Shown here piece by piece: positions 21,691-59,626 of a DNA stretch of 64,000 nt. Under the pieces are notes generated by a model that saw nothing but the letters and a program-made list of their open reading frames with translations, ran no database searches and was not told the origin of the DNA. The stretch is taken from positions 744,001 to 808,000 of the forward strand of contig NZ_WPCV01000002.1 of the NCBI RefSeq assembly GCF_018035235.1, given 5' to 3'. A program made the position numbers and the translations under genes. Source of the stretch: Citrobacter sp. On2M. Its GTDB lineage: Bacteria > Pseudomonadota > Gammaproteobacteria > Enterobacterales > Enterobacteriaceae. Numbering within the stretch: the stretch's first letter is position 1; every line of letters begins with the position of its first letter.

Positions 21691-23145
<1,455 letters not shown>

Positions 23146-23153
23146 TTAAATTA

Positions 23154-24887
<1,734 letters not shown>

Positions 24888-25199
24888 TCAGGAAAAAAGC
24901 TCTTTCCTTAATGCTATTATTTCTTTGACTAAGTCCTGGCAAAGTATCGCATTCATCAAATGATCCTGTGCGTGTACGAGAATTAAATTGACATTTATTT
25001 TTCCGCAGCCTTCATCCTGGCTGATTAAAGCCGTTTGTATTTTATGAGCCTGAAGGCTTGCTTCTTCTGAGCTTTTCAGCAATTGCGTTACAGCATCCCA
25101 ATTTTTTTCACGCGCATACTTCAGCGACTCCATTGCGTCGGAACGAGCTTGTCCGGCATGAATCAATAATTCCATTACTGTTTCTTCATTGGCAAACAT
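24888..25199 (-). CDS. PTS lactose/cellobiose family IIA component
   Basis: This 103-residue IIA protein belongs to the lactose/N,N'-diacetylchitobiose family. The motif VHAQDHLMN holds the phosphoryl-accepting His76, with Asp79 as the metal ligand. The start MFANEETVMELL follows AGGAGTT. It lies between the IIC gene and the porin gene, and accepts phosphate from HPr to pass to the IIB Cys. Confidence 0.93.
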   Translation of the reverse strand: MFANEETVMELLIHAGQARSDAMESLKYAREKNWDAVTQLLKSSEEASLQAHKIQTALISQDEGCGKINVNLILVHAQDHLMNAILCQDLVKEIIALRKELFS

Positions 25200-25234
25200 A
25201 AATAACTCCTGGTTTTTATTTGATAATCTGATGG

Positions 25235-26554
25235 TTATTCAGCTGTGGTAGCATTCACTTTATTGGAAGCAATAACGAAGGGTAAATAGATCAATGTTGC
25301 AACGCCGAGGCAGAGCAAGCCCACGAGTAAAGCCAACCAGTTACCACCTGTTCCAAGAAATGCGATGAGGGGGCCTGGGGTGGTCCACGGCACGGCATAG
25401 GCAACCGGGGGAATGATTTTCATCGTGACAAAGAAATAGCCAATCAGCGAGTTAACAATCGGCACCAGAATGAAAGGCACCATCATTATTGGGTTCAATA
25501 CAATAGGTAAGCCAAACATGACCGGTTCATTAATATTGAAAATACCGGGTATAAAAGACATCTTGGCCAGATCTCTATATTCAGCGCGACGTGAAGCAAT
25601 AAAGATCGCCAGTAATAACCCTAAGGTCATACCTGAGCCACCGCAGTTTGCAAATGCATCGTTGATTGATGTCCAGGTTACCGGGTAGGGGGCATCCCAG
25701 GTTGCGCCGTGCTGGGCGGCCCAGGAAAGGTTTTCCAGGTTTGCTTCGGAAAAAACCGTTTCACGAATAGCTGATGTTGTATTAGGGCCATGGATCCCGA
25801 GAACCCACAGAAAATTTCCGACGGCGCCCAGAACGATGACAGCGAAGATGTTCGTCCCCATATGCTTGAGAGGAGCCTGAATTAACGTATAGATCAGATC
25901 GTTGAGCCCATTGGGAGAGATAAGGGAGAGTAAAAAATTCAGTGCTGAAAAAAAGATCATCACAAAGAAAATGGGTAATAACACTTTGAACGATCGTGCA
26001 ACTGCAGGTGGAACCGCTGCTGGCATGGTGATGGTTATCTTGGGATTTCTTGCCATCCGACAAAAAATTTCACTGGTCAATAACGCCACGATGACTGCAA
26101 CAAACAGGCCTTGTGCACCTAAAAATTTGGTTGTCAGAAATGCCTGGTTATCGATCATCTGATAGGGAGTATAAACAATGAAAAACGCGCCAATAGCTGT
26201 TAATCCACACAGAAGCTCATCCTGTTCGTAGCTGATTGCCATGTTTCTGGCGACGAGAAACGCAATCATGATGGACATGATATTCACGGAGCCATTCATT
26301 ACTGGGGTAAAGATGGCTTGAGCCTTTTCCAGGTTCGGGAATATGCTGCTAAGATGCAGCAGTCCGGCGATAAAGCCATCGGGTGATAAGATCGCAAAAT
26401 TTATTAATACAATTAATGAACTTGCCATTATAATTGGAAAGGTATAGACAAACCCATCTCTAACAGCAGCAACGTGCTTTTGTGAATTTAATTTTATTGC
26501 TATTGGAACAAGAAAACGTTCCATCCCTCGCTCAAAGGTATTCATTAATCCCAT
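25235..26554 (-). CDS. PTS lactose/cellobiose family IIC permease
   Basis: This is the membrane channel of the PTS, about 439 residues, with roughly ten hydrophobic segments and the family stretches FNINEPVMFGLPIVLNP and PWTTPGPLIAFLGTGGNW. Sugar is translocated and phosphorylated with the separate IIB and IIA. The ATG at 26554 (MGLMNTFERGME) has AGGTGA at the right distance; the GTG three codons earlier at 26563 has no good site. It is most like CelB/ChbC proteins. A hairpin lies between it and the IIB gene. Confidence 0.93.
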   Translation of the reverse strand: MGLMNTFERGMERFLVPIAIKLNSQKHVAAVRDGFVYTFPIIMASSLIVLINFAILSPDGFIAGLLHLSSIFPNLEKAQAIFTPVMNGSVNIMSIMIAFLVARNMAISYEQDELLCGLTAIGAFFIVYTPYQMIDNQAFLTTKFLGAQGLFVAVIVALLTSEIFCRMARNPKITITMPAAVPPAVARSFKVLLPIFFVMIFFSALNFLLSLISPNGLNDLIYTLIQAPLKHMGTNIFAVIVLGAVGNFLWVLGIHGPNTTSAIRETVFSEANLENLSWAAQHGATWDAPYPVTWTSINDAFANCGGSGMTLGLLLAIFIASRRAEYRDLAKMSFIPGIFNINEPVMFGLPIVLNPIMMVPFILVPIVNSLIGYFFVTMKIIPPVAYAVPWTTPGPLIAFLGTGGNWLALLVGLLCLGVATLIYLPFVIASNKVNATTAE

Positions 26555-26603
26555 TACGGTCACCTGTAATTGTTAGGTATTTATTTTGGATAGGTCTTTT
26601 GGT

Positions 26604-26626
26604 TCCTGAGTTGGTTATTCTCAGGA
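26604..26626 (-). repeat. intercistronic hairpin between IIB and IIC genes
   Basis: TCCTGAG (26604-26610) pairs with CTCAGGA (26620-26626). No T-tract follows on the transcribed strand. It may set the ratio of IIB to IIC mRNA. Confidence 0.5.
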
Positions 26627-26653
26627 GCAGGAATATACTATGCAGTGCGTTGG

Positions 26654-26962
26654 TTACTTGAGAAGTTTCAGTGCAAACTCCAGAACTGCTTTGCCATTCA
26701 TTGATCCGTAATCTTTCATATCAATAACCGCGACAGGGATTTTTCCTTGTGCAACCTCTTCAATTTCAGATTTCTGAAAACGAACCTGTGGACCTAATAA
26801 GACAACATCGGCTTCATTGTTTTTGATCCGTCCTTTGGCTTCCCCAATAGCCAGAGCATTAATATTAAAATCAGCATTGATAGTTATGGCATGTTCAATC
26901 ATTCTCTTTACTAACATGCTGGTCGACATTCCCGCGGCACAAACCAATAATATATTTTTCAT
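26654..26962 (-). CDS. PTS lactose/cellobiose family IIB component
   Basis: This 102-residue IIB protein has the P-loop-like phosphorylation motif LLVCAAGMSTSMLV with Cys8 as phosphoryl acceptor. The start at 26962 (MKNILL) follows TGAGGA; the TTG four codons upstream is rejected because the Cys motif should be close to the N-terminus. It is the first gene of the unit IIB-IIC-IIA-porin-glucosidase and is divergent from the GntR gene. Confidence 0.93.
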   Translation of the reverse strand: MKNILLVCAAGMSTSMLVKRMIEHAITINADFNINALAIGEAKGRIKNNEADVVLLGPQVRFQKSEIEEVAQGKIPVAVIDMKDYGSMNGKAVLEFALKLLK

Positions 26963-27033
26963 ATAAATCCTCAATTGTTATATTAAATCTGAATGACTAC
27001 GTTTTAATATTATTTAATCCTTGGGGTGTTTTT

Positions 27034-27049
27034 TGTTACATTGGTCACA
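27034..27049. promoter_or_regulatory. CRP-like site between PTS unit and GntR gene
   Basis: TGTTA-CATTGG-TCACA matches the CRP core TGTGA-N6-TCACA at nine of ten positions. Catabolite control by cAMP-CRP would be normal for a beta-glucoside PTS. A palindrome TCGATATCGA follows at 27051-27060 and may be an operator. Confidence 0.6.
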
Positions 27050-27161
27050 GTCGATATCGATAAATAGGTTCAGTTTGATTAGAAAAAATGAACAACTTTC
27101 CATTTTTTCGTTTTAATATAACGTAACCAATTGTTTTTTATGAATGCAAAGAGGTGCTAAA

Positions 27162-27884
27162 GTGGTATTCCAGAATATTGCAAAAATGCTGAAAGATATC
27201 ATTAATGGATATTTATATAATGTGGGTGATTTATTGCCGTCAGAAGTCGAATTGGCACAGCGTTTTAATGTTTCACGCAATACCTTACGAAAAGCGCTGA
27301 ATCTCTTAGAGAGTGAGGGGGTAATTGAACGTAAGCACGGTTCCGGTACCTATGTGAAGAAGAAGATTTTTGTCGCACATGTACATCACATGAACAGTTT
27401 TAGTGAGATTGCATATAACAGTGGTAAAGAGGTCGTTAGCCAGATTATGAAGTTTGAACTACAGGTAGCCTCAGGACGTATTGCTAAAGAATTAAATATG
27501 GAGCAAAGTGAATCAGTATATTATATAAAACGACTGCGGGTGATTGATAATAAACCAGCGCAATTAGAGGAAACCTGGCTTTCAGTGAGTCGCTTCCCGC
27601 AATTAACCATTTCACATATGAGGAATTCCAAATTTACGTATATAGAAAAAGAATGTAATATTAAAATAATTGGCACGTTTGAAACGTTTTCTCCGGTATT
27701 TCCAACGGCGGAAATAGCCAGTATTCTTCATACCAGTACCAAAGATCCAATATTGAGAATTCAAACGCAGGCAGTTGATGAAAATTACCAACCAATTGAT
27801 TATTCTATATTGCATTCAAATATATTTGAGTTTCAGGTGAAATATTTTTTACCACGCCAGAAAGCATGCCAAGACTTAAAATGA
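27162..27884 (+). CDS. GntR-family regulator with UTRA domain
   Basis: The 240-residue regulator has an N-terminal winged helix (about 1-68: LLPSEVELAQRFNVSRNTLR, GVIERKHGSGTYV) and a C-terminal UTRA ligand domain of the MngR/PhnF/TreR type. It is divergent from the PTS unit and probably controls it, with a phosphorylated sugar as effector; this is inferred from position. The GTG at 27162 (MVFQNIAKML) has AGAGGTG five bases upstream; the ATG at 27144 is an alternative that adds six residues and has no ribosome site. Confidence 0.88.
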   Translation: MVFQNIAKMLKDIINGYLYNVGDLLPSEVELAQRFNVSRNTLRKALNLLESEGVIERKHGSGTYVKKKIFVAHVHHMNSFSEIAYNSGKEVVSQIMKFELQVASGRIAKELNMEQSESVYYIKRLRVIDNKPAQLEETWLSVSRFPQLTISHMRNSKFTYIEKECNIKIIGTFETFSPVFPTAEIASILHTSTKDPILRIQTQAVDENYQPIDYSILHSNIFEFQVKYFLPRQKACQDLK

Positions 27885-49978: not shown

Positions 49979-50414
49979 GTTTCATCCGGCCGACTATGAC
50001 AGCCATGGGCGTCTGCGCCTGCCTTTTCTCTTCTGGTGCGTATTGCTGCTGCAGGCACGCACCTGGGTACTGTTTGTCATTGCTGGCTCTTCCCGTGAGC
50101 AGGGCAATACATTACTGAATTTGTTTTATCCCGATCATGATGCATTCTGGCTGGGGTTACTTCCCGGCGTTCCGGCGGTACTGGCGTTTTTAGTCAGCGG
50201 CAGGCGTTTTGCGTTTCCTGTGATATGGCGCTGGCTGCGCGGATTACTGATCCTCGCTCAACTGGTGCTGTTGTGCTGGCAGCCGGTGATGTGGCTGGGA
50301 GGCGATCCGGTCAACGGCGTCGGGCTGGCGCTGCTGGTGGCGGATATTGTCGCGCTGATCTGGCTGTTAACCAATCAACGTTTGCGCGCCTGTTTTTCCC
50401 TCGAGAAAGAATAA
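49965..50414 (+). CDS. yfeZ: YfeZ inner-membrane protein (DUF2919)
   Basis: The 149-residue protein has four hydrophobic segments (about 20-42, 58-75, 82-103, 112-132) and matches E. coli YfeZ. Its ATG lies inside the end of ypeA (ATGAAGAGTACTGAG), a coupled start. Function is unknown. Confidence 0.9.
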
Positions 50415-50473
50415 CGGCACTTTTTGGCGAAAGCGGACTCCAAGCAACGTTGATAAATAAGGAAGGAAGTGAA

Positions 50474-51049
50474 ATGAAATCACTGCGTTTGACTTTATGC
50501 GCGATGCCGCTACTACTGACCGGGTGTTCAACGTTGTCGTCAGTAAACTGGTCTGCCGCCAATCCGTGGAACTGGTTTGGTTCTTCAACGCAGGTCACTG
50601 AGCAGGGCGTCGGAGCGTTAACGGGCGCGACACCGCTGGATGAAAAATCCATTGCTGATGCGCTGGACGGGGAATACCGTCTGCGCAGCGGAATGAAGAC
50701 CGATAACGGGAATGTGGTGCGTTTCTATGAAGCGATGAAAGATGACAAGCTCGCGATGGTTATCAATGGCACCCAGGGAACCATCAACCGTATTGATGTA
50801 TTAGACAGCGATATTTCGTCTTCTGCGGGTGTCAAAATCGGTACACCGTTTAGCGAGCTTTACACTAAAGCCTTTGGTCATTGTCAGAAAGCAACCGGCG
50901 ATGATAGCGCGGGCGTTGAATGTAAAGCTGAAGGAAGTCAGCATATTAGCTATGTCTTTTCCGGCGAGTGGAGCGGGCCTGAAGGCTTAATGCCGTCTGA
51001 CGACACGCTGAAAGCATGGAAAGTAAGCAAAATTATCTGGCAGCGTTAA
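50474..51049 (+). CDS. yfeY: YfeY lipoprotein (RpoE-regulated in E. coli)
   Basis: The 191-residue protein starts with a lipoprotein signal (lipobox LLTGC, Cys about 18) and matches E. coli YfeY (DUF1131), a member of the sigma-E regulon there. The open frame extends to 50225, but the ATG at 50474 has GGAAGGAAGTGAA upstream and places the signal at the N-terminus. Function is unknown. Confidence 0.92.
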   Translation: MKSLRLTLCAMPLLLTGCSTLSSVNWSAANPWNWFGSSTQVTEQGVGALTGATPLDEKSIADALDGEYRLRSGMKTDNGNVVRFYEAMKDDKLAMVINGTQGTINRIDVLDSDISSSAGVKIGTPFSELYTKAFGHCQKATGDDSAGVECKAEGSQHISYVFSGEWSGPEGLMPSDDTLKAWKVSKIIWQR

Positions 51050-52078: not shown

Positions 52079-52293
52079 CACAAAATAGTTACCTGTTGAA
52101 CCCCACAACGTCTGCCATGCAGATGATGCATCCGCATTGACGCTCATCGTAAAAAATCCCATTCCAGGTTCAGTGTTGTTTACCTGTCAGTTAGTTGTTT
52201 AAAGCACCGATATTAAACACTGCCCTTTTGAATTAATAAGTTCCGGATAGTTACTTTAAAAAATCTAAATATATCTGAATTAAATCACGGTTT

Positions 52294-52315
52294 AAATGTG
52301 ACGAAGATCTGATTC
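52294..52315 (+). promoter_or_regulatory. CRP-like site upstream of the lyase gene
   Basis: The 22-base site beginning AAATGTGA and continuing AGATCTGATT matches the CRP consensus at about 16 of 22 positions, with a perfect left half. It lies about 90 bases upstream of the promoter's -35 element. Confidence 0.5.
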
Positions 52316-52393
52316 TTTTACTCTATTCATAAAAATAAAATGTCTTATAAGTGTAATTAATTTCATCATAAATTGATTTAATGCCTTCATTTG

Positions 52394-52421
52394 TTGACAA
52401 TTAAAATGATGGTCTTGTAAT
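52394..52421 (+). promoter_or_regulatory. sigma-70 promoter for the lyase-permease unit
   Basis: A perfect -35 TTGACA (52394-52399), a 16-base spacer and a -10 TGTAAT (52416-52421, one mismatch). It is about 70 bases upstream of the lyase start, which has a strong GGAGG at 52482-52486. Confidence 0.72.
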
Positions 52422-52490
52422 CTGAAAATGAGCGAAAAATAACGGAATTTATTCTTAACCATTTGGCAACAAAAGTGCATTGGAGGTTTT

Positions 52491-53867
52491 ATGTCTACAA
52501 AATTATGGGGTGGGCGTTTTGATATGCCTACAAATAAGCTGGTCGAATCATATAACGCGACAATTATGCTGGAACAACGCCTCTGTCCTTTTGATATTCA
52601 AGGGAGTATTGTCCACGCAACTATGTTGGGCCGTCAGGGGATTATTGCACAGGATGAAGCGAATGCGATTATTGGCGGGTTAAGGCAAGTAGGTAAAGAA
52701 ATTGAAGAAGGGCAGTTCGTTTTTGACACTGTTGATGAAGATATTCATATGGCAATCGAAAGACGTATGACCGAAATAATTGGTCCTGTAGGTGGGAAAC
52801 TACATACAGGTCGAAGTCGTAATGACCAGACGACTGTCGATTCTAAAATGCATATGAGATCAACTATTCGTGAGATTCAGCAGGATATTGTTCATCTGCA
52901 AAAAATTATTATTAATAAAGCTGAAAATAATATTAATGCGATTATGCCGGGCTATACTCATTTACAGACCGGTCAGCCTATTCTTTTATCACACTGGATC
53001 ATGGCATATTATTGGATGTTACGTCGTGACTGGACTCGTTTTGAAGACCTTTATCAACGCATGGGAGAATGTCCTTTAGGTTCAGCAGCTCTTGCAGGTA
53101 CGACTTTCCCTATTGATCGTGATTTCACTGCTCAACAGCTTGGCTTTGATAAGCCGACTGAGAATAGTATTGATTCTGTCAGCGATCGTGACCATATGGT
53201 TGAATTCACTGCTGCAGCCGCTATGTGCTTTATGCATCTTACCCGTTTGTCAGAAGAATTGGTTTTATTCTCAAGTCAGGACTTTAAATTTATTGAGCTT
53301 TCTGATGATTTCTGTACTGGTTCCAGCATCATGCCCCAGAAGAAAAATCCTGATGTGGCTGAAAAAATGCGCGGTAAAGGCGGTCGTATGTACGGAAATT
53401 TAATGGCGATGCTGACCATTATGAAAGGGATCCCTCTCGCCTATAATACTGATATGAGTGAGGATAAAGAGCAGGTCTATGATTCCATGGATACTTTGCA
53501 AACCAGTCTAAAAATTATGGCGCCGATGCTCGATAAAATGGTTATTCTTTCTGAGAATACTCGCAACGCGGCGGCAAGAGGCTTCTCAAATGCGACCGAT
53601 ATGGCTGATTACCTGGTTCGTAAAGGAATTCCTTTCAGGGAAGCTCACCATATTGTCGGCAGTGCTGTTAATTACTGTATAAAACATAGAAAAATGCTGG
53701 AAGAGCTTACAATGGATGAATTTCATTCATTTGATAATAAAATTGAAAATGATATTTATGAGAATATATCTCTGGAAGCTTGTATTAAAGCAAGGATGTC
53801 TTATGGCGGAACAGGAACGGATGCCGTTAAAAAACAGATCGAAATTGCTAAATCATATCTGAACTAA
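52491..53867 (+). CDS. argininosuccinate lyase family protein (ArgH paralogue, probable altered specificity)
   Basis: This 458-residue aspartase/fumarase-superfamily lyase is closest to ArgH, which splits argininosuccinate to arginine and fumarate. It has LWGGRF at the start, DEDIH (His86), TGRSRNDQ (106-113), YTHLQ (His157) and the Ser loop GSSIMPQKKNPD (Ser278/279). Two spots differ from every ArgH I can recall: RAQP is TGQP (160-163), and YNKDxQEDK is YNTDMSEDK, with Thr320 and Ser323 where Lys and Gln are usual. That Gln contacts the substrate's amine side in known structures. Fumarate is therefore a likely product, but the partner may not be arginine. It is AT-rich, is followed by a DcuA/B-like carrier, and is not part of an arg cluster. 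Confidence 0.88.
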   Translation: MSTKLWGGRFDMPTNKLVESYNATIMLEQRLCPFDIQGSIVHATMLGRQGIIAQDEANAIIGGLRQVGKEIEEGQFVFDTVDEDIHMAIERRMTEIIGPVGGKLHTGRSRNDQTTVDSKMHMRSTIREIQQDIVHLQKIIINKAENNINAIMPGYTHLQTGQPILLSHWIMAYYWMLRRDWTRFEDLYQRMGECPLGSAALAGTTFPIDRDFTAQQLGFDKPTENSIDSVSDRDHMVEFTAAAAMCFMHLTRLSEELVLFSSQDFKFIELSDDFCTGSSIMPQKKNPDVAEKMRGKGGRMYGNLMAMLTIMKGIPLAYNTDMSEDKEQVYDSMDTLQTSLKIMAPMLDKMVILSENTRNAAARGFSNATDMADYLVRKGIPFREAHHIVGSAVNYCIKHRKMLEELTMDEFHSFDNKIENDIYENISLEACIKARMSYGGTGTDAVKKQIEIAKSYLN

Positions 53868-53889
53868 TCCTAAGCATAATAATTAATAT

Positions 53890-53912
53890 CTCCCGGATGC
53901 AATATCCGGGAG
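53890..53912 (+). repeat. intercistronic hairpin between lyase and carrier genes
   Basis: CTCCCGGAT (53890-53898) pairs perfectly with ATCCGGGAG (53904-53912) across five bases. No T-tract follows, and the carrier's ribosome site (TTGAGGTG) begins a few bases later. It may protect the lyase mRNA or tune carrier translation. Confidence 0.75.
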
Positions 53913-53929
53913 GGCTTTGAGGTGAAAAA

Positions 53930-55246
53930 ATGGATGCTTTGTTTTTTTTACAATTATTTATTGTGCTCGCTTGTATTGGTATCGGCGGGCGTTATGGCGG
54001 AATGGGACTTGGTGCTGGGGGCGGACTTGGTGTTGCAATATTAGTTCTGGGTTTTGGACTTAAGCCCTCCACACCATCTATTACTGCAATGTTAATTATT
54101 ATTTGTGTTATTGGCGCAGTCAGTGTATTACAGGCTGCTGGTGGACTTGATTATCTTGTGCGCGTGGCTGAAAAATTACTCCGTAAAAAGCCACAAGCTA
54201 TTACTTTTGTTGCTCCAATACTGACTTCAATATTTACGTTATTCTGCGGGACCACTTACGTTGCATTCTCTTTGTATCCGGTCGTCGCTGAGGTTGCCGC
54301 TGAAGCTAAGGTCCGCCCGGAGCGAGCGTTATCAGCAACAGTTATAGCGGCTAGTGTCGCGGTTGCCGCCAGCCCGATGAGTGCAGCAACAGCGGGGATG
54401 CTGGCTATTCTGCATGAATATGCTGGAATTAGCCTTGGACAAATACTGGCTATTGCTCTTCCTTCATTTTTTATGGCTGCCATTGTTACAAGCTTTTCAG
54501 TTTACAAACGCGGTAAAGAGCTGGAGGATGATCCTGAGTTTCAGAGGCGTGTTGCCGCTGGTGAATATGAGTTCATGCATACTGCGCAGAAAAAAGAATA
54601 TGTTGCTTCAGCGGGCGCAAAAAAAGGGGTCGTTATCTTTGCGATTGGGGTGGTGCTGGTTCTAATTTTAGGTTCTTTTACCGGGTTACTCCCTTCCTGG
54701 GATGGAAAAAGACTGTCAACCCCGATGGTTATTCAAATGATTATGCTGACAGCTGCTTTGTTTATTATGATTGTCAGTAAAGTACCAAGTAGTACCTTGA
54801 ACAGTGGCTCAGTATTCCGTGCTGGTTTAATGGGGGTGGTTGCAATACTTGGCGTTTCATGGATGACGGCAACGTTTTTTGATGCTTATCAGCCAGAATT
54901 GATTAAGGTCTTTGGTGGTATGGTAAATGGCGCACCGATGCTTTTTGGTGTGGTTGTGTTCTTGTTCTCTCTGGTCATTATGAGCCCTGCGGCGACGGTT
55001 GCCGCCATCATGCCACTAGGTGTTACCCTGGGAATACCAGCACCGTATCTTATCGCCATTTTTGCCTGTACCTGTGGTGATTTTATTATACCGGGCGCCA
55101 ATCAAATCGGTTGCGTTGCATTTGACCGAACAGGCACGACAAAGATTGGACGTTTTGTTGTCAATCATAGCTACATTCGTCCGGGTTTTGTGATGGTTAT
55201 CTCTCAGGTAATTTTTGCCTACTTAATTGCTCAGGTTGTCCTGTAG
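53930..55246 (+). CDS. DcuA/DcuB-family C4-dicarboxylate carrier (first copy)
   Basis: This 438-residue membrane protein has about ten to twelve hydrophobic segments and aligns with E. coli DcuA/DcuB over its whole length: GIGGRYGGMGLGAGGGLGVA at the start, LQAAGGLDYLV (about 68-78), VAASPMSAAT (about 145), and near the end DRTGTTKIGRFVVNHSYIRPG. Dcu carriers exchange fumarate, malate or aspartate for succinate during anaerobic growth. It follows the lyase by 62 bases on the same strand and is probably co-transcribed. It may bring in the lyase substrate or exchange its C4 product. Confidence 0.9.
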   Translation: MDALFFLQLFIVLACIGIGGRYGGMGLGAGGGLGVAILVLGFGLKPSTPSITAMLIIICVIGAVSVLQAAGGLDYLVRVAEKLLRKKPQAITFVAPILTSIFTLFCGTTYVAFSLYPVVAEVAAEAKVRPERALSATVIAASVAVAASPMSAATAGMLAILHEYAGISLGQILAIALPSFFMAAIVTSFSVYKRGKELEDDPEFQRRVAAGEYEFMHTAQKKEYVASAGAKKGVVIFAIGVVLVLILGSFTGLLPSWDGKRLSTPMVIQMIMLTAALFIMIVSKVPSSTLNSGSVFRAGLMGVVAILGVSWMTATFFDAYQPELIKVFGGMVNGAPMLFGVVVFLFSLVIMSPAATVAAIMPLGVTLGIPAPYLIAIFACTCGDFIIPGANQIGCVAFDRTGTTKIGRFVVNHSYIRPGFVMVISQVIFAYLIAQVVL

Positions 55247-55369
55247 AGCGCATTCTGTGGGAAATGGCAGTAGTAATATTGAGAAGGACGTAATGGCATC
55301 CTCTCTGAACTGAATCAAGGGGGATGCCAAAACAAGTAGGTATTAGCTCTATTTAATTACTCTACCGCG
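55247..55369. repeat. convergent spacer with inverted repeat between the two carriers
   Basis: TGGCATCC (55294-55301) pairs with GGATGCCA (55322-55329) across a 20-base loop. It could end both convergent transcripts, but there is no T-tract. No mobile-element signature is recognised. Confidence 0.5.
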
Positions 55370-56686
55370 CTACATCAGCATACTGGAAAAAAGGAAGCAA
55401 AAAAGCGTTGATGCGACAACGGTAACAAGGCCGGGTAGCATATAGCTGTGATTAACCACATACTTGCCAATTCGAGTTGTCCCAGTACGATCAAACGCCA
55501 CACAGCCAATCTGTGCTCCCCCCGGAATAATGAATGATCCACAGGTTAGTGGGAGCAGGGCGACCAAAGTTTCTGCCGGATATCCCATTAACACGCCTGC
55601 GGGGAGTAATGCTACAGCAGTTGCCGCTGGGCTATAAATTACGGCAGAAAGCCCAAAAACAATAATGCCGAACAATACTGGATTCTGAAAATCGTGGAAA
55701 GCCGTGTTAAATAATTCGTGCCATGCTTCAAAAAAGGAGTTCATCATCCATGACAGACCAAATATGGCGACAACACCCACAAGGCCGGCTTTGAAAACAG
55801 AACCTGAATCAAGTTTTGAAGGAGAAATTCGACACACCATCATAATAATACATGCTGTTGTCAGCATAACTATTTGCAGCGTGGTTGGGATACTCATACG
55901 CTCCATCCCTGTGCCGTTATTCCATTCAGGACGTAGTTCAGGAATTGAACCCATAAGCACGACCAGGATGATCCCGATAAGAAAAATCAGTAATCCTCTC
56001 TTGGCCTCTTTAGTCACTATGCTGGCTGCTCGCTCTTCAGCTTTTATCGATTCGAACTCACCTTCAGCAACTCTGCGTTGGAATTCCGGATCGCTGCTAA
56101 GCTCGTGACCTCTTTTAAAGACGAACAGGCAGCCGACAAGACAGCCAAGGAAAGTTCCGGGAATGGTGACTAACAAGATATCTAAAGCAGAGACATGTAA
56201 TCCAGCAAGAACTGCAATTGTCCCTGTCACGACCGCACTGACTGGGCTGGCAATGAGCCCAAAATTGGCAGCGATGACTGACATCGACATAGCTCTTTCT
56301 GGCCGTACCCTCGCATCTGCTGCAATTTCTGCAATTACTGGATAAACGGAAAAGGCAACATATCCAGTTCCGCAGATTGCAGTGAAAAGGTAAGCGACTG
56401 CTGGTCCGAGAAAAGTGATAGCGCCCGGCCACTTTCTGAGGATCCGTTCAGCCATCGTAACGAATAAATCAAGCCCGCCAGCAGCCTGGAGAATTGTGAT
56501 ACAAGTGATAACAGCAAGGATAATAGAAATAACAGTTATAGGAGGTGAGTCGGGCGGGAGTCCAAAACCAAAAGTCAGGATAGCGAGTCCTAACCCGCCT
56601 GCAGCCCCCAGGCCAATCCCGCCAAAACGCCCACCTATACCGATACATATAAGCACTATCGCAAACTGAGTTACGAATAACACCAT
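55370..56686 (-). CDS. DcuA/DcuB-family C4-dicarboxylate carrier (second copy)
   Basis: This is also 438 residues and clearly paralogous to the neighbour across the convergent spacer (shared GIGGRFGGIGLGAAGGLGLA, LQAAGGLDLFV, SDPEFQRRVAEGEFE, GCVAFDRTGTTRIGKYVVNHS). The two differ enough in the membrane core to suggest different substrates or directions. It is divergent from the GntR/FCD gene, which may control it through the palindrome at 56769-56786. AAGGAATTAATT precedes the ATG. Confidence 0.9.
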   Translation of the reverse strand: MVLFVTQFAIVLICIGIGGRFGGIGLGAAGGLGLAILTFGFGLPPDSPPITVISIILAVITCITILQAAGGLDLFVTMAERILRKWPGAITFLGPAVAYLFTAICGTGYVAFSVYPVIAEIAADARVRPERAMSMSVIAANFGLIASPVSAVVTGTIAVLAGLHVSALDILLVTIPGTFLGCLVGCLFVFKRGHELSSDPEFQRRVAEGEFESIKAEERAASIVTKEAKRGLLIFLIGIILVVLMGSIPELRPEWNNGTGMERMSIPTTLQIVMLTTACIIMMVCRISPSKLDSGSVFKAGLVGVVAIFGLSWMMNSFFEAWHELFNTAFHDFQNPVLFGIIVFGLSAVIYSPAATAVALLPAGVLMGYPAETLVALLPLTCGSFIIPGGAQIGCVAFDRTGTTRIGKYVVNHSYMLPGLVTVVASTLFCFLFSSMLM

Positions 56687-56768
56687 AATTAATTCCTTTT
56701 TATTAACAAATAGCTTGATATAATTTGAATAATAGGGGCTATAATCTTACCATAACAGTATATTAAGC

Positions 56769-56786
56769 AATCTAACTTATTAGATT
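56769..56786. promoter_or_regulatory. candidate operator for the GntR/FCD regulator
   Basis: AATCTAA-CTTA-TTAGATT is a perfect inverted repeat of seven bases per arm with four between. It lies in the divergent spacer between the second carrier and the regulator gene. GntR/FCD dimers bind short palindromes of this size. A half site with the same AATCTAA is seen upstream of the lyase at 52262-52268. Confidence 0.6.
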
Positions 56787-56830
56787 ATTTATACTCATGA
56801 GTTTTGTTGCTCTTTAATCAGAGAGTGTTT

Positions 56831-57487
56831 ATGGATAACAAAAACGAACTATTTGAAAGTATTAAAAATTATCTGCTTGATGATGCTAACCGTGATGCAG
56901 ATGGTCGCATTGAAACTGAGACTGAACTTGCTGTTCGTTTTAATACATCAAGATATAAAGTTCGTCAGGCGCTCAGCACACTGGTTCAGATGGGAATGCT
57001 TGAACGCTCTCCCCGTCGTGGCAGCGTCTTGAAAAATTTGGAACAGCACAACATAAATAACCAGTTGCTAATGCAGTTTGATTTGTCCGGGTTTGATATC
57101 ACAGAATTTACAGAGGCAAGGATCCTGATTGAGTGTGCGATTATCCCTCTGGCAACGCGCAGAATTTTCCCGGCAATGCTCTCTAAACTGGAGAGTGAGT
57201 TAAGGCTCATTGAAGAAAATGCTGATAACCCGCTGGTGGCCGATCGTCACGACAGGGATTTTCATTTACTGTTGCTACAGGCGAGTGGTAACCGGGTGCT
57301 TCAGGTTTTCTCTGATGTTTTGATTACTTATTTCGAGAAAACCAGGGAGTCGCTACCTGCTAACGATCGTCAGTATTTTCTTGATACGGCGACAAAACAG
57401 AGAGAAATACTGCTTCATATCAAAAAAGGGGATGCACAGATGGCATCTGAGTTGATGAGAGCACATTTGCTGGAAAAAAGGCTGTAG
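56831..57487 (+). CDS. GntR-family regulator with FCD (FadR-type) ligand domain
   Basis: The 218-residue regulator has an N-terminal winged helix (about 1-68: ETELAVRFNTSRYKVRQALS, GMLERSPRRGSVL) and an all-helical FCD domain (about 80-218: TEFTEARILIECAI, DRHDRDFHLLLLQASGN). The Asp/His pattern fits the metal site of FCD domains that bind carboxylic acids. It is divergent from the second carrier and probably controls the block with a C4-dicarboxylate or the lyase substrate as effector; this is inferred. The ATG at 56831 is preferred over an upstream codon at 56804. Confidence 0.9.
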   Translation: MDNKNELFESIKNYLLDDANRDADGRIETETELAVRFNTSRYKVRQALSTLVQMGMLERSPRRGSVLKNLEQHNINNQLLMQFDLSGFDITEFTEARILIECAIIPLATRRIFPAMLSKLESELRLIEENADNPLVADRHDRDFHLLLLQASGNRVLQVFSDVLITYFEKTRESLPANDRQYFLDTATKQREILLHIKKGDAQMASELMRAHLLEKRL

Positions 57488-57525
57488 GTCCTCTGTTCAT
57501 CTGTTCAGATCGTGAATGTTGTTGA

Positions 57526-57551
57526 GTCCCCGCACCGTCGGGGATTTTTTT
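57526..57551 (+). terminator. intrinsic terminator after the GntR/FCD gene
   Basis: TCCCCG (57527-57532) pairs with CGGGGA (57539-57544), followed by seven T residues. It closes the inserted block before ucpA. Confidence 0.9.
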
Positions 57552-58609: not shown

Positions 58610-59626
58610 ATGGCCGTTAACTTACTGAAAAAAAGAACCCTGACGCTGGCTGCAATGCTATTGCTGGTGGGTCAGGCGCAGGCAACGGAACTGCTGAACA
58701 GTTCATATGATGTTTCACGTGAGCTTTTTGCCGCCCTTAATCCATCGTTTGAACAGCAATGGGCGAAGGATAATGGCGGTGATAAACTGACGATTAAACA
58801 ATCACATGCCGGGTCATCAAAACAAGCGTTGGCGATTCTGCAAGGGCTGAAAGCCGATGTGGTGACCTATAACCAGGTCACCGATGTGCAGATCCTGCAT
58901 GACAAAGGCAAACTGATCCCCGCCGACTGGCAAAGTCGTCTGCCGAATAACAGCTCGCCGTTCTATTCCACCATGGGTTTCCTGGTGCGTAAGGGGAACC
59001 CGAAAAACATTCATGACTGGAATGACCTTGTGCGTTCTGATGTGAAACTGATTTTCCCGAACCCCAAAACCTCCGGTAACGCGCGCTATACCTATCTTGC
59101 GGCGTGGGGCGCTGCGGATAAAGCGGACGGTGGCGATAAAGCCAAAACCGAACAGTTCATGACCCAGTTTCTGAAAAACGTCGAAGTGTTTGATACCGGT
59201 GGTCGCGGAGCTACCACCACTTTTGCAGAGCGCGGATTGGGCGATGTACTGATTAGCTTCGAATCCGAAGTGAACAACATTCGTAAACAGTATGAAGCGC
59301 AGGGTTTCGAAGTTGTTATCCCGAAAACCAATATCCTCGCCGAATTTCCGGTAGCCTGGGTAGATAAAAACGTGCAGGCCAACGGGACTGAAAAAGCGGC
59401 GAAAGCGTACCTGAACTGGTTGTACAGCCCACAGGCGCAAACCATCATTACCGATTTCTATTACCGCGTGAATAACCCGCAGGTGATGGACAAACAGCAA
59501 GATAAATTCCCGCAGACCGAACTTTTCCGCGTGGAAGACAAGTTTGGTTCATGGCCTGAGGTCATGAAAACGCACTTTGTCAGCGGCGGTGAACTGGACA
59601 AACTGTTGGCGGCGGGGCGTAAGTAA
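58610..59626 (+). CDS. cysP: thiosulfate/sulfate-binding periplasmic protein CysP
   Basis: CysP is the periplasmic binding protein that delivers thiosulfate and sulfate to CysUWA. The 338-residue protein has a Sec signal with likely cleavage after AQA (residue 25) and the binding-protein fold ([10 protein letters not shown] about 64-73, [17 protein letters not shown]). It is the first gene of cysPUWAM; the cysU ATG follows its stop without a gap. Confidence 0.97.

Follow-up and report, generated by a model that had tools for sequence, protein, structure and literature searches.

We analysed a window of 64,000 nucleotides (positions 744,001 to 808,000 of contig NZ_WPCV01000002.1) from the 5.04 Mb genome of Citrobacter sp. 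On2M. Our subject is a block of four genes that lies between a Dyp-type peroxidase gene (yfeX) and ucpA. As the initial annotation of this DNA had it, family models identify an ArgH-superfamily lyase, which we call LYA, a Dcu-type carrier, a second Dcu-type carrier whose gene faces the first, and a divergent GntR/FCD regulator:

52491..53867, plus strand: LYA, argH-like C-N lyase of the ArgH superfamily, 458 amino acids
53930..55246, plus strand: Dcu1, DcuA/DcuB-family carrier, directly 3' of LYA after a gap of 62 bases
55370..56686, minus strand: Dcu2, second DcuA/DcuB-family carrier, convergent with Dcu1 and divergent from the regulator
56831..57487, plus strand: GntR/FCD regulator

Both carriers score above the cut-offs for PF03605 and TIGR00770, which places them in the DcuA/DcuB family, and the regulator scores above the cut-offs for both of its domains (PF00392 (GntR), 31.6 bits; PF07729 (FCD), 66.5 bits). 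An alternative upstream TTG start for the regulator, at 56804, is also open. The block had been described as AT-rich against its flanks, and it is: the G+C content of 52163-57540 is 42.8%, versus 52.2% for the whole window and 54% for yfeX and ucpA. In 20 E. coli records among the matches listed, murP and murQ are annotated at the corresponding stretch instead of the block.

LYA keeps the catalytic motifs of the superfamily (SRNDQ, YTHxQ, and GSSIMPQKKN). To compare the remaining residues, we collected lyase open reading frames (ORFs) of 380-520 amino acids that scored above 150 bits, which gave 147 rows (117 non-identical); one distant sequence (L152|5, 1/117) was left out of the groups. Positions 24, 28, and 323 are S, D, and Q in all 93 ArgH comparators, which were retrieved by similarity to LYA and are presumed to function as ArgH. 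Among the 16 closest members of the LYA clade, these positions are T (15/15), E (15/15), and S (16/16), with one row too short to cover the first two. These closest members also have T at 320 and K at 292, where the genome's own ArgH has K and L. Four of the seven more distant clade members (L131-L134) share T, E, and S, and the others (L045-L047) have V, E, and Q. In human numbering, obtained by offset, the invariant ArgH residues are S29, D33, and Q328, and the LYA clade departs from this set. Because the comparator-invariant residues were tested and found changed, LYA should not be filed as ArgH. ArgH-type active sites are built from three subunits, and on a plain reading of the alignment, LYA would have retained the fumarate half-site and altered the amine half-site. 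As a speculation, E in place of D (an added methylene) and T in place of S (an added methyl) would suit a shorter amine, such as lysine.

In a phylogenetic tree (comparators thinned to 74 rows, and rows under 400 amino acids dropped), the LYA clade comprises 21 rows with support of 100/99 and is sister to ArgH from Deferribacterota. The genome's own ArgH is encoded elsewhere and is 43% identical to LYA. Its gene lies between an amino-acid kinase gene and a LysR gene; we compare this site with the order argB-argH-oxyR, which we take to be that of E. coli. Among 20 genomes searched, all 17 that bear a member of the LYA clade also have a different ArgH-like gene, whose product shares 41-48% identity with LYA, and the three Deferribacterota genomes have a single ArgH-like match each. 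Judging from these sequences, LYA is derived from ArgH and is extra to the cell's real ArgH.

Could LYA still cleave argininosuccinate, so that the operon scavenges external argininosuccinate for arginine and fumarate? The argH model is the best family model for LYA, whose score is far above the curated equivalog cut-off in NCBIfam (610 bits against TIGR00838, with a cut-off of 279.5). The catalytic motifs are intact, and the changes from S to T and from D to E are conservative and preserve the side-chain chemistry, so an arginine-like amine might still fit. Nevertheless, we consider this explanation unlikely. Three residues that are invariant in 93/93 ArgH comparators are changed in all of the 16 closest clade members that cover them; all 17 bearers tested have another ArgH-like gene; and no arginine-degrading gene is among those annotated near the E. 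coli copies of the block (see below). It had also been stated that no arginine biosynthesis gene is nearby. This held for the six proteins that we scanned, among which only LYA resembles the product of an arginine gene; the ORFs at 50225-51049 and 58610-59626 lay outside that scan, as did the greater part of the window.

The gene set is conserved well beyond this genome. LYA is 97-98% identical to the lyases of Citrobacter braakii and Citrobacter sp. Cu233. When a single genome of each species was scanned, relatives sharing 70% identity or more turned up in Citrobacter, Budvicia, Thaumasiovibrio, Enterovibrio, Parasutterella secunda, Aphodousia, and one uncultured member of Burkholderiaceae; a separate search added three more from the window's family. 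Together these presumably represent three orders. A Dcu gene lies directly 3' of the lyase gene, on the same strand, in 15/15 related loci. The FCD gene is kept in 13 of the 15, at most about 8 kb from the lyase within the stretch inspected, and 12 of them (L058 included) have a second, non-adjacent Dcu gene. (The lyase gene is interrupted in L044 and L178, as is Dcu1 in L177; these were counted for synteny as found.) Thus, in the neighbourhood survey that the initial annotation had called for, the genes stay together. No Dcu gene was found in any of 59 control ArgH loci (65, less 6 without a recognised lyase), but many of these loci are short contigs, which makes them a poor control for distance, though a better one for adjacency.

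The lyase is rare in the samples, and the placement of the block varies. Lyases with at least 70% identity are found in 6 of 295 genomes of the window's family (counting the window's genome). In the order sample, the lyase is in 1 of 394 genomes, which is the window's own; at 57% identity or more, there are 2 among 399 genomes of the order of P. secunda, counting the centre genome. Two other loci (L042 and L043) have the block at the same yfeX/ucpA site, and it lies between other genes in C. werkmanii (L034), C. amalonaticus (L035), and Citrobacter sp. MGH106 (L036). We found no description of this gene set in the open-licence literature, of which our coverage was limited.

A tblastn search located a copy of the block on a conjugative plasmid of E. 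coli (NZ_AP022088.1), with 93% protein identity and with gene order and orientation unchanged. The genes that come next on this plasmid are dcuR, ansB, a dcu gene, and aspA. A megablast search with the window's block as the query gave no match because the DNA identity to the plasmid copy is only 78%. When the plasmid copy served as the query, at least part of it was matched in 176 of 5426 complete E. coli genomes (in 142 of them, at least 80% of the block), at 177 places, of which 173 are chromosomal and 4 are on plasmids. In strain SMS-3-5 (NC_010498.1, 1117000-1155719; L212 and L215), the genes after the block are dcuR, ansB, dcu, aspA, pepT, and dcuC, with a gene for an isoaspartyl peptidase beyond insertion-sequence remnants; on the other side, some 11 kb ahead of the block, is a tRNA-Asn gene. 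This region looks like an aspartate-to-fumarate foraging island. Two partial copies (L213 and L214) have a truncated Dcu2 together with FCD, dcuR, ansB, dcu, and aspA genes, and neither LYA nor Dcu1 in the stretch inspected. Alongside the partial copy in L213 are a GH1/phosphotransferase system (PTS) gene set and insertion sequences, and alongside that in L214 is an ISL3 transposase gene.

The gene set is horizontally spread among Citrobacter, some E. coli, and unrelated bacteria. The ratio of nonsynonymous to synonymous rates (dN/dS) is 0.02-0.05 for LYA, Dcu1, and Dcu2 in comparison with two E. coli copies (dS is saturated for FCD), and 0.02-0.03 for all four genes in comparison with C. werkmanii; with dS at 1.2-2.7, these ratios are rough. 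As far as sequence comparison can tell, the block genes are under purifying selection, and the block behaves as a mobile unit.

The presence of aspA near the block in E. coli raises another candidate reaction: LYA might act on a substituted succinate and release ammonia, a thiol, or an alcohol in place of an N-alkyl amine, which would make it an extra aspartase-like enzyme or a C-S or C-O lyase. Other members of the superfamily are known to release ammonia or water, and Dcu carriers are known to accept aspartate and malate. However, aspA already provides aspartase in E. coli, and LYA fits ArgH far better than it fits aspartase or fumarase models and structures. We view this reaction as very improbable.

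Upstream of LYA and between the regulator and Dcu2, we identified candidate regulatory sites:

52391..52400, strand not assigned: operator candidate TTGTTGACAA, 100 bases 5' of LYA, consensus TTGTYRACAA
56697..56711, minus strand: imperfect related site ATTTGTTAATAAAAA, directly upstream of Dcu2
52294..52315, plus strand: CRP-like site AAATGTGACGAAGATCTGATTC, with conserved half-site AAATGTGA

By our own reading, TTGTTGACAA overlaps a -35-like TTGACA at 52394-52399, so the site would suit repression. Of the 16 block loci (the window and the 15 related loci), 13 have an exact TTGTYRACAA ahead of the lyase gene: 13 of the 14 with an FCD gene, versus 0 of the 2 (L038 and L044) with no FCD gene in the stretch. 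As a background, TTGTYRACAA has 9 matches in the 969 kb of the 65 control loci. The motif shared by TTGTTGACAA and ATTTGTTAATAAAAA occurs twice in the window, versus 0.10 expected (with one mismatch allowed), and exact sites are also found in the intergenic stretch between the regulator and Dcu genes in L034, L041, and L058. Both E. coli copies that we examined have the operator candidate before LYA. In the window's own genome, the operator pattern is matched exactly about as often as its reversed control (9 vs 10 forward), and we claim no further member of the regulon. AAATGTGACGAAGATCTGATTC is called CRP-like by comparison with what we take to be the CRP consensus; its half-site AAATGTGA is identical in 6/6 aligned Citrobacter promoters. 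We rejected another palindrome, AATCTAA-N4-TTAGATT at 56769, as an operator: it has one exact match in the window and is altered in 3/6 aligned Citrobacter promoters.

Putting these observations together, we propose, with a probability of roughly 0.6, that the block was acquired horizontally and is an operon for the catabolism of some N-substituted aspartate, argininosuccinate excepted. LYA probably turns a modified aspartate into fumarate, which can be respired without oxygen. Dcu1 and/or Dcu2 would import the dianionic N-substituted aspartate in exchange for succinate. LYA, with its superfamily motifs intact, would abstract the beta-proton and expel the amine, yielding fumarate and an amine or amino acid. 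The fumarate would then be reduced in anaerobic respiration and leave as succinate via a Dcu carrier. The FCD protein may act as a repressor at the TTGTYRACAA sites that overlap the LYA promoter, since the gene and the site are co-conserved across orders; the substrate or a product would release it. A catabolic system of this kind had been suggested in the initial annotation, and its outline appears sound given the gene set, the operator candidate, the altered extra lyase, the genes around the E. coli copies, and the Dcu homolog FraA (discussed below). The outline is supported by the annotated neighbours of the block in E. coli, which handle asparagine, aspartate, and C4 acids.

In some other genomes, the operon plausibly includes a further step. 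A gene of the MmgE/PrpD family is present in 5/15 related loci (identified with Pfam in L039, and by similarity to the L039 protein in L040, L041, L058, and L176), and its product might interconvert stereoisomers that the lyase cannot cleave. The best match in PDB for the L039 protein is iminodisuccinate (IDS) epimerase (2hp0, E = 1e-38), and these neighbours are distant relatives of that enzyme. For IDS epimerase, His99 and Tyr145 are the suggested first and second bases, and the R,R and S,S isomers are converted to R,S (PMC7347537). By our own counting of residues, the equivalent of His99 (in DHSG) is kept in 7/7 aligned MmgE neighbours.

The same MmgE/PrpD subfamily is also found on plasmids of soil bacteria. 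We inspected 12 such loci (L200-L211), drawn from 40 of 678 matched records, with flanks of 7-8 kb. Ten of the 12 have an ArgH-like lyase beside MmgE; the other two have MmgE with no lyase in the stretch inspected. Annotated examples of these operons, which are rhizobial and burkholderial, encode LysR, the ArgH-like lyase, an amino-acid ABC transporter, a PuuE-like deacetylase, and MmgE/PrpD. An agmatinase gene is near the lyase operon in two loci, and an arginase gene is in one locus that has MmgE and no lyase; both would favour argininosuccinate as the substrate of LYA. All 10 plasmid lyases have Y or F at position 28, S or A at 323, and R at 320, and the "argH" genes of these operons are probably misnamed as well. 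The tree keeps the plasmid lyases apart from the LYA group, and we favour independent origins for the two groups.

This second pairing of a lyase with MmgE raises the possibility that the substrate of LYA is IDS or a close relative, with aspartate as the leaving amine, as in Agrobacterium tumefaciens BY6. The pairing in 5/15 loci, the PDB match of the L039 protein, and the aspartate and asparagine genes annotated around the E. coli copy are in keeping with this. On the other hand, the equivalent of Tyr145 is Asn in 7/7 aligned neighbours, and the first match for the L176 protein and for an Agrobacterium relative is B. subtilis IRG1. On these two observations, the lost tyrosine and the mixed PDB ranking, we rejected the name IDS epimerase for the MmgE neighbour. 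Furthermore, 10/15 loci and the window's block have no MmgE, and the natural supply of IDS is questionable. We regard IDS as an improbable substrate, more so than argininosuccinate.

Several observations weigh against an operon for another N-substituted aspartate as we have described it, in addition to the high argH score, the conservative replacements, and the short control contigs mentioned above. That S29, D33, and Q328 contact the arginine part of the substrate is our assumption. The FCD-bearing locus L176 has an imperfect site in place of an exact TTGTYRACAA. The proposed isomerase step is weakened by the loss of Tyr145 and by the ranking of IRG1-type decarboxylases first for two of the three MmgE proteins tested, and the window's genome has a single MmgE/PrpD match, located outside the block. 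As for the plasmid lyases, 5 of the 10 retain S at position 24 (the other 5 have A), and joining both altered lyase groups in one origin was not rejected by an approximately unbiased (AU) test on 47 rows (p = 0.067).

LYA possibly belongs to a broader strategy in the gut. Genomes of Parasutterella, Turicimonas, and near relatives have 8-27 matches to PF00206 (the fumarase/aspartase superfamily) and 4-12 matches to Dcu, versus 6 and 5 in the window's genome (fragments counted), and the Sutterellaceae-type genomes of that set are 1.8-2.9 Mb in size (G300, G301, G302, G306, G307, and G311; L141-L172). Several of their lyase genes adjoin Dcu, M20 peptidase, or further lyase genes. Tentatively, and with appreciably less confidence than in the operon itself, we suggest that N-succinylated amines (fumarate adducts of amino acids or amines) are a class of nutrients for gut bacteria. 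ArgH-derived lyases, each specific for an amine and often paired with Dcu, would release respirable fumarate from them; these lyases would be amplified in the Sutterellaceae-type genomes, and in SMS-3-5 the family would be gathered in one region with asparaginase, aspartase, peptidase T, DcuC, and an isoaspartyl peptidase.

In one of these genomes (L141, 9448-12979), the gene for a lyase 61% identical to LYA precedes a gene of the ornithine cyclodeaminase/mu-crystallin family and an aminotransferase gene (the families were tested on L141 only), and L149, L167, and L171 have similar-sized ORFs. We attempted to identify the amine from the genes beside this group-B lyase and from the deacetylase and agmatinase of the Agrobacterium plasmid. 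The hints, at lysine-, ornithine-, and guanidino-type amines, disagree, so we name no substrate.

A gene annotated as argH in the E. coli records among the matches listed probably does not encode an arginine enzyme, and annotating LYA as argH would mislead metabolic models. If our proposal is correct, the block defines an unrecognised source of a nutrient and electron acceptor for anaerobic growth in the gut, the expansion of lyases in Parasutterella and Turicimonas acquires a testable function, and the enzyme family could be useful for making N-substituted aspartates.

Two further features concern the ends of the transcripts:

55294..55329, strand not assigned: 15-nt inverted repeat between the convergent Dcu genes, a possible two-way terminator (repeat search)
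57524..57547, plus strand: terminator-like hairpin after the regulator (terminator scan)

The block had been described as bounded by terminators. This is borne out after the FCD gene and, possibly, between the Dcu genes, and the terminator scan listed none between yfeX and LYA. Elsewhere in the window, a second AT-rich stretch (21691-27884) encodes a GH1 glycosidase, a LamB-type porin, a PTS EIIC component, and a GntR/UTRA regulator, and is perhaps an acquired beta-glucoside locus. The genome encodes three Dcu proteins elsewhere, with which Dcu1 shares 36-38% identity. In the same genome (L193, 6966-10324), we noticed a further Dcu gene beside what, by our own reading, are an aspartate/glutamate racemase-like ORF and a LysR-like ORF.

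How does the block compare to known systems? LYA resembles ArgH in family, length, and catalytic motifs, as well as in overall identity to the genome's own ArgH. It differs by S24T, D28E, and Q323S, along with T320 and K292, and by its setting among Dcu and FCD genes in a genome that has a real ArgH besides. Agrobacterium tumefaciens BY6 reportedly degrades IDS with an epimerase and a stereoselective C-N lyase. The pairing of a C-N lyase with MmgE/PrpD is similar in 5/15 LYA loci, but the MmgE of these loci lacks Tyr145 and the window's block lacks MmgE. The structure 6g3d, which is labelled argininosuccinate lyase in PDB, is presumably the ethylenediaminedisuccinate (EDDS) lyase of Chelativorans. 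This is also an ArgH-like C-N lyase that acts on an N-substituted aspartate, as we propose for LYA, but it is not the closest solved relative: LYA is far nearer to ArgH (E = 1.7e-132 for 2e9f, versus 7.2e-62 for 6g3d).

The Salmonella fra locus is needed for growth on fructose-asparagine, and its putative transporter, FraA, is homologous to the Dcu family (PMC4072780). The Dcu step that we propose for an N-substituted aspartate is supported by this homology because FraA, like the carriers of the block, is a Dcu-family protein, and it belongs to a pathway for an N-substituted asparagine. The fra locus also encodes a putative sugar kinase and a phosphosugar isomerase, and the part of that source used here names no ArgH-type lyase (PMC4072780).

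Lastly, the enterobacterial aspA-dcuA module likewise consists of a fumarate-releasing lyase adjoining a Dcu carrier, and aspA, dcu, and ansB adjoin the block in E. coli. Aspartase works on free aspartate, whereas LYA is derived from ArgH.

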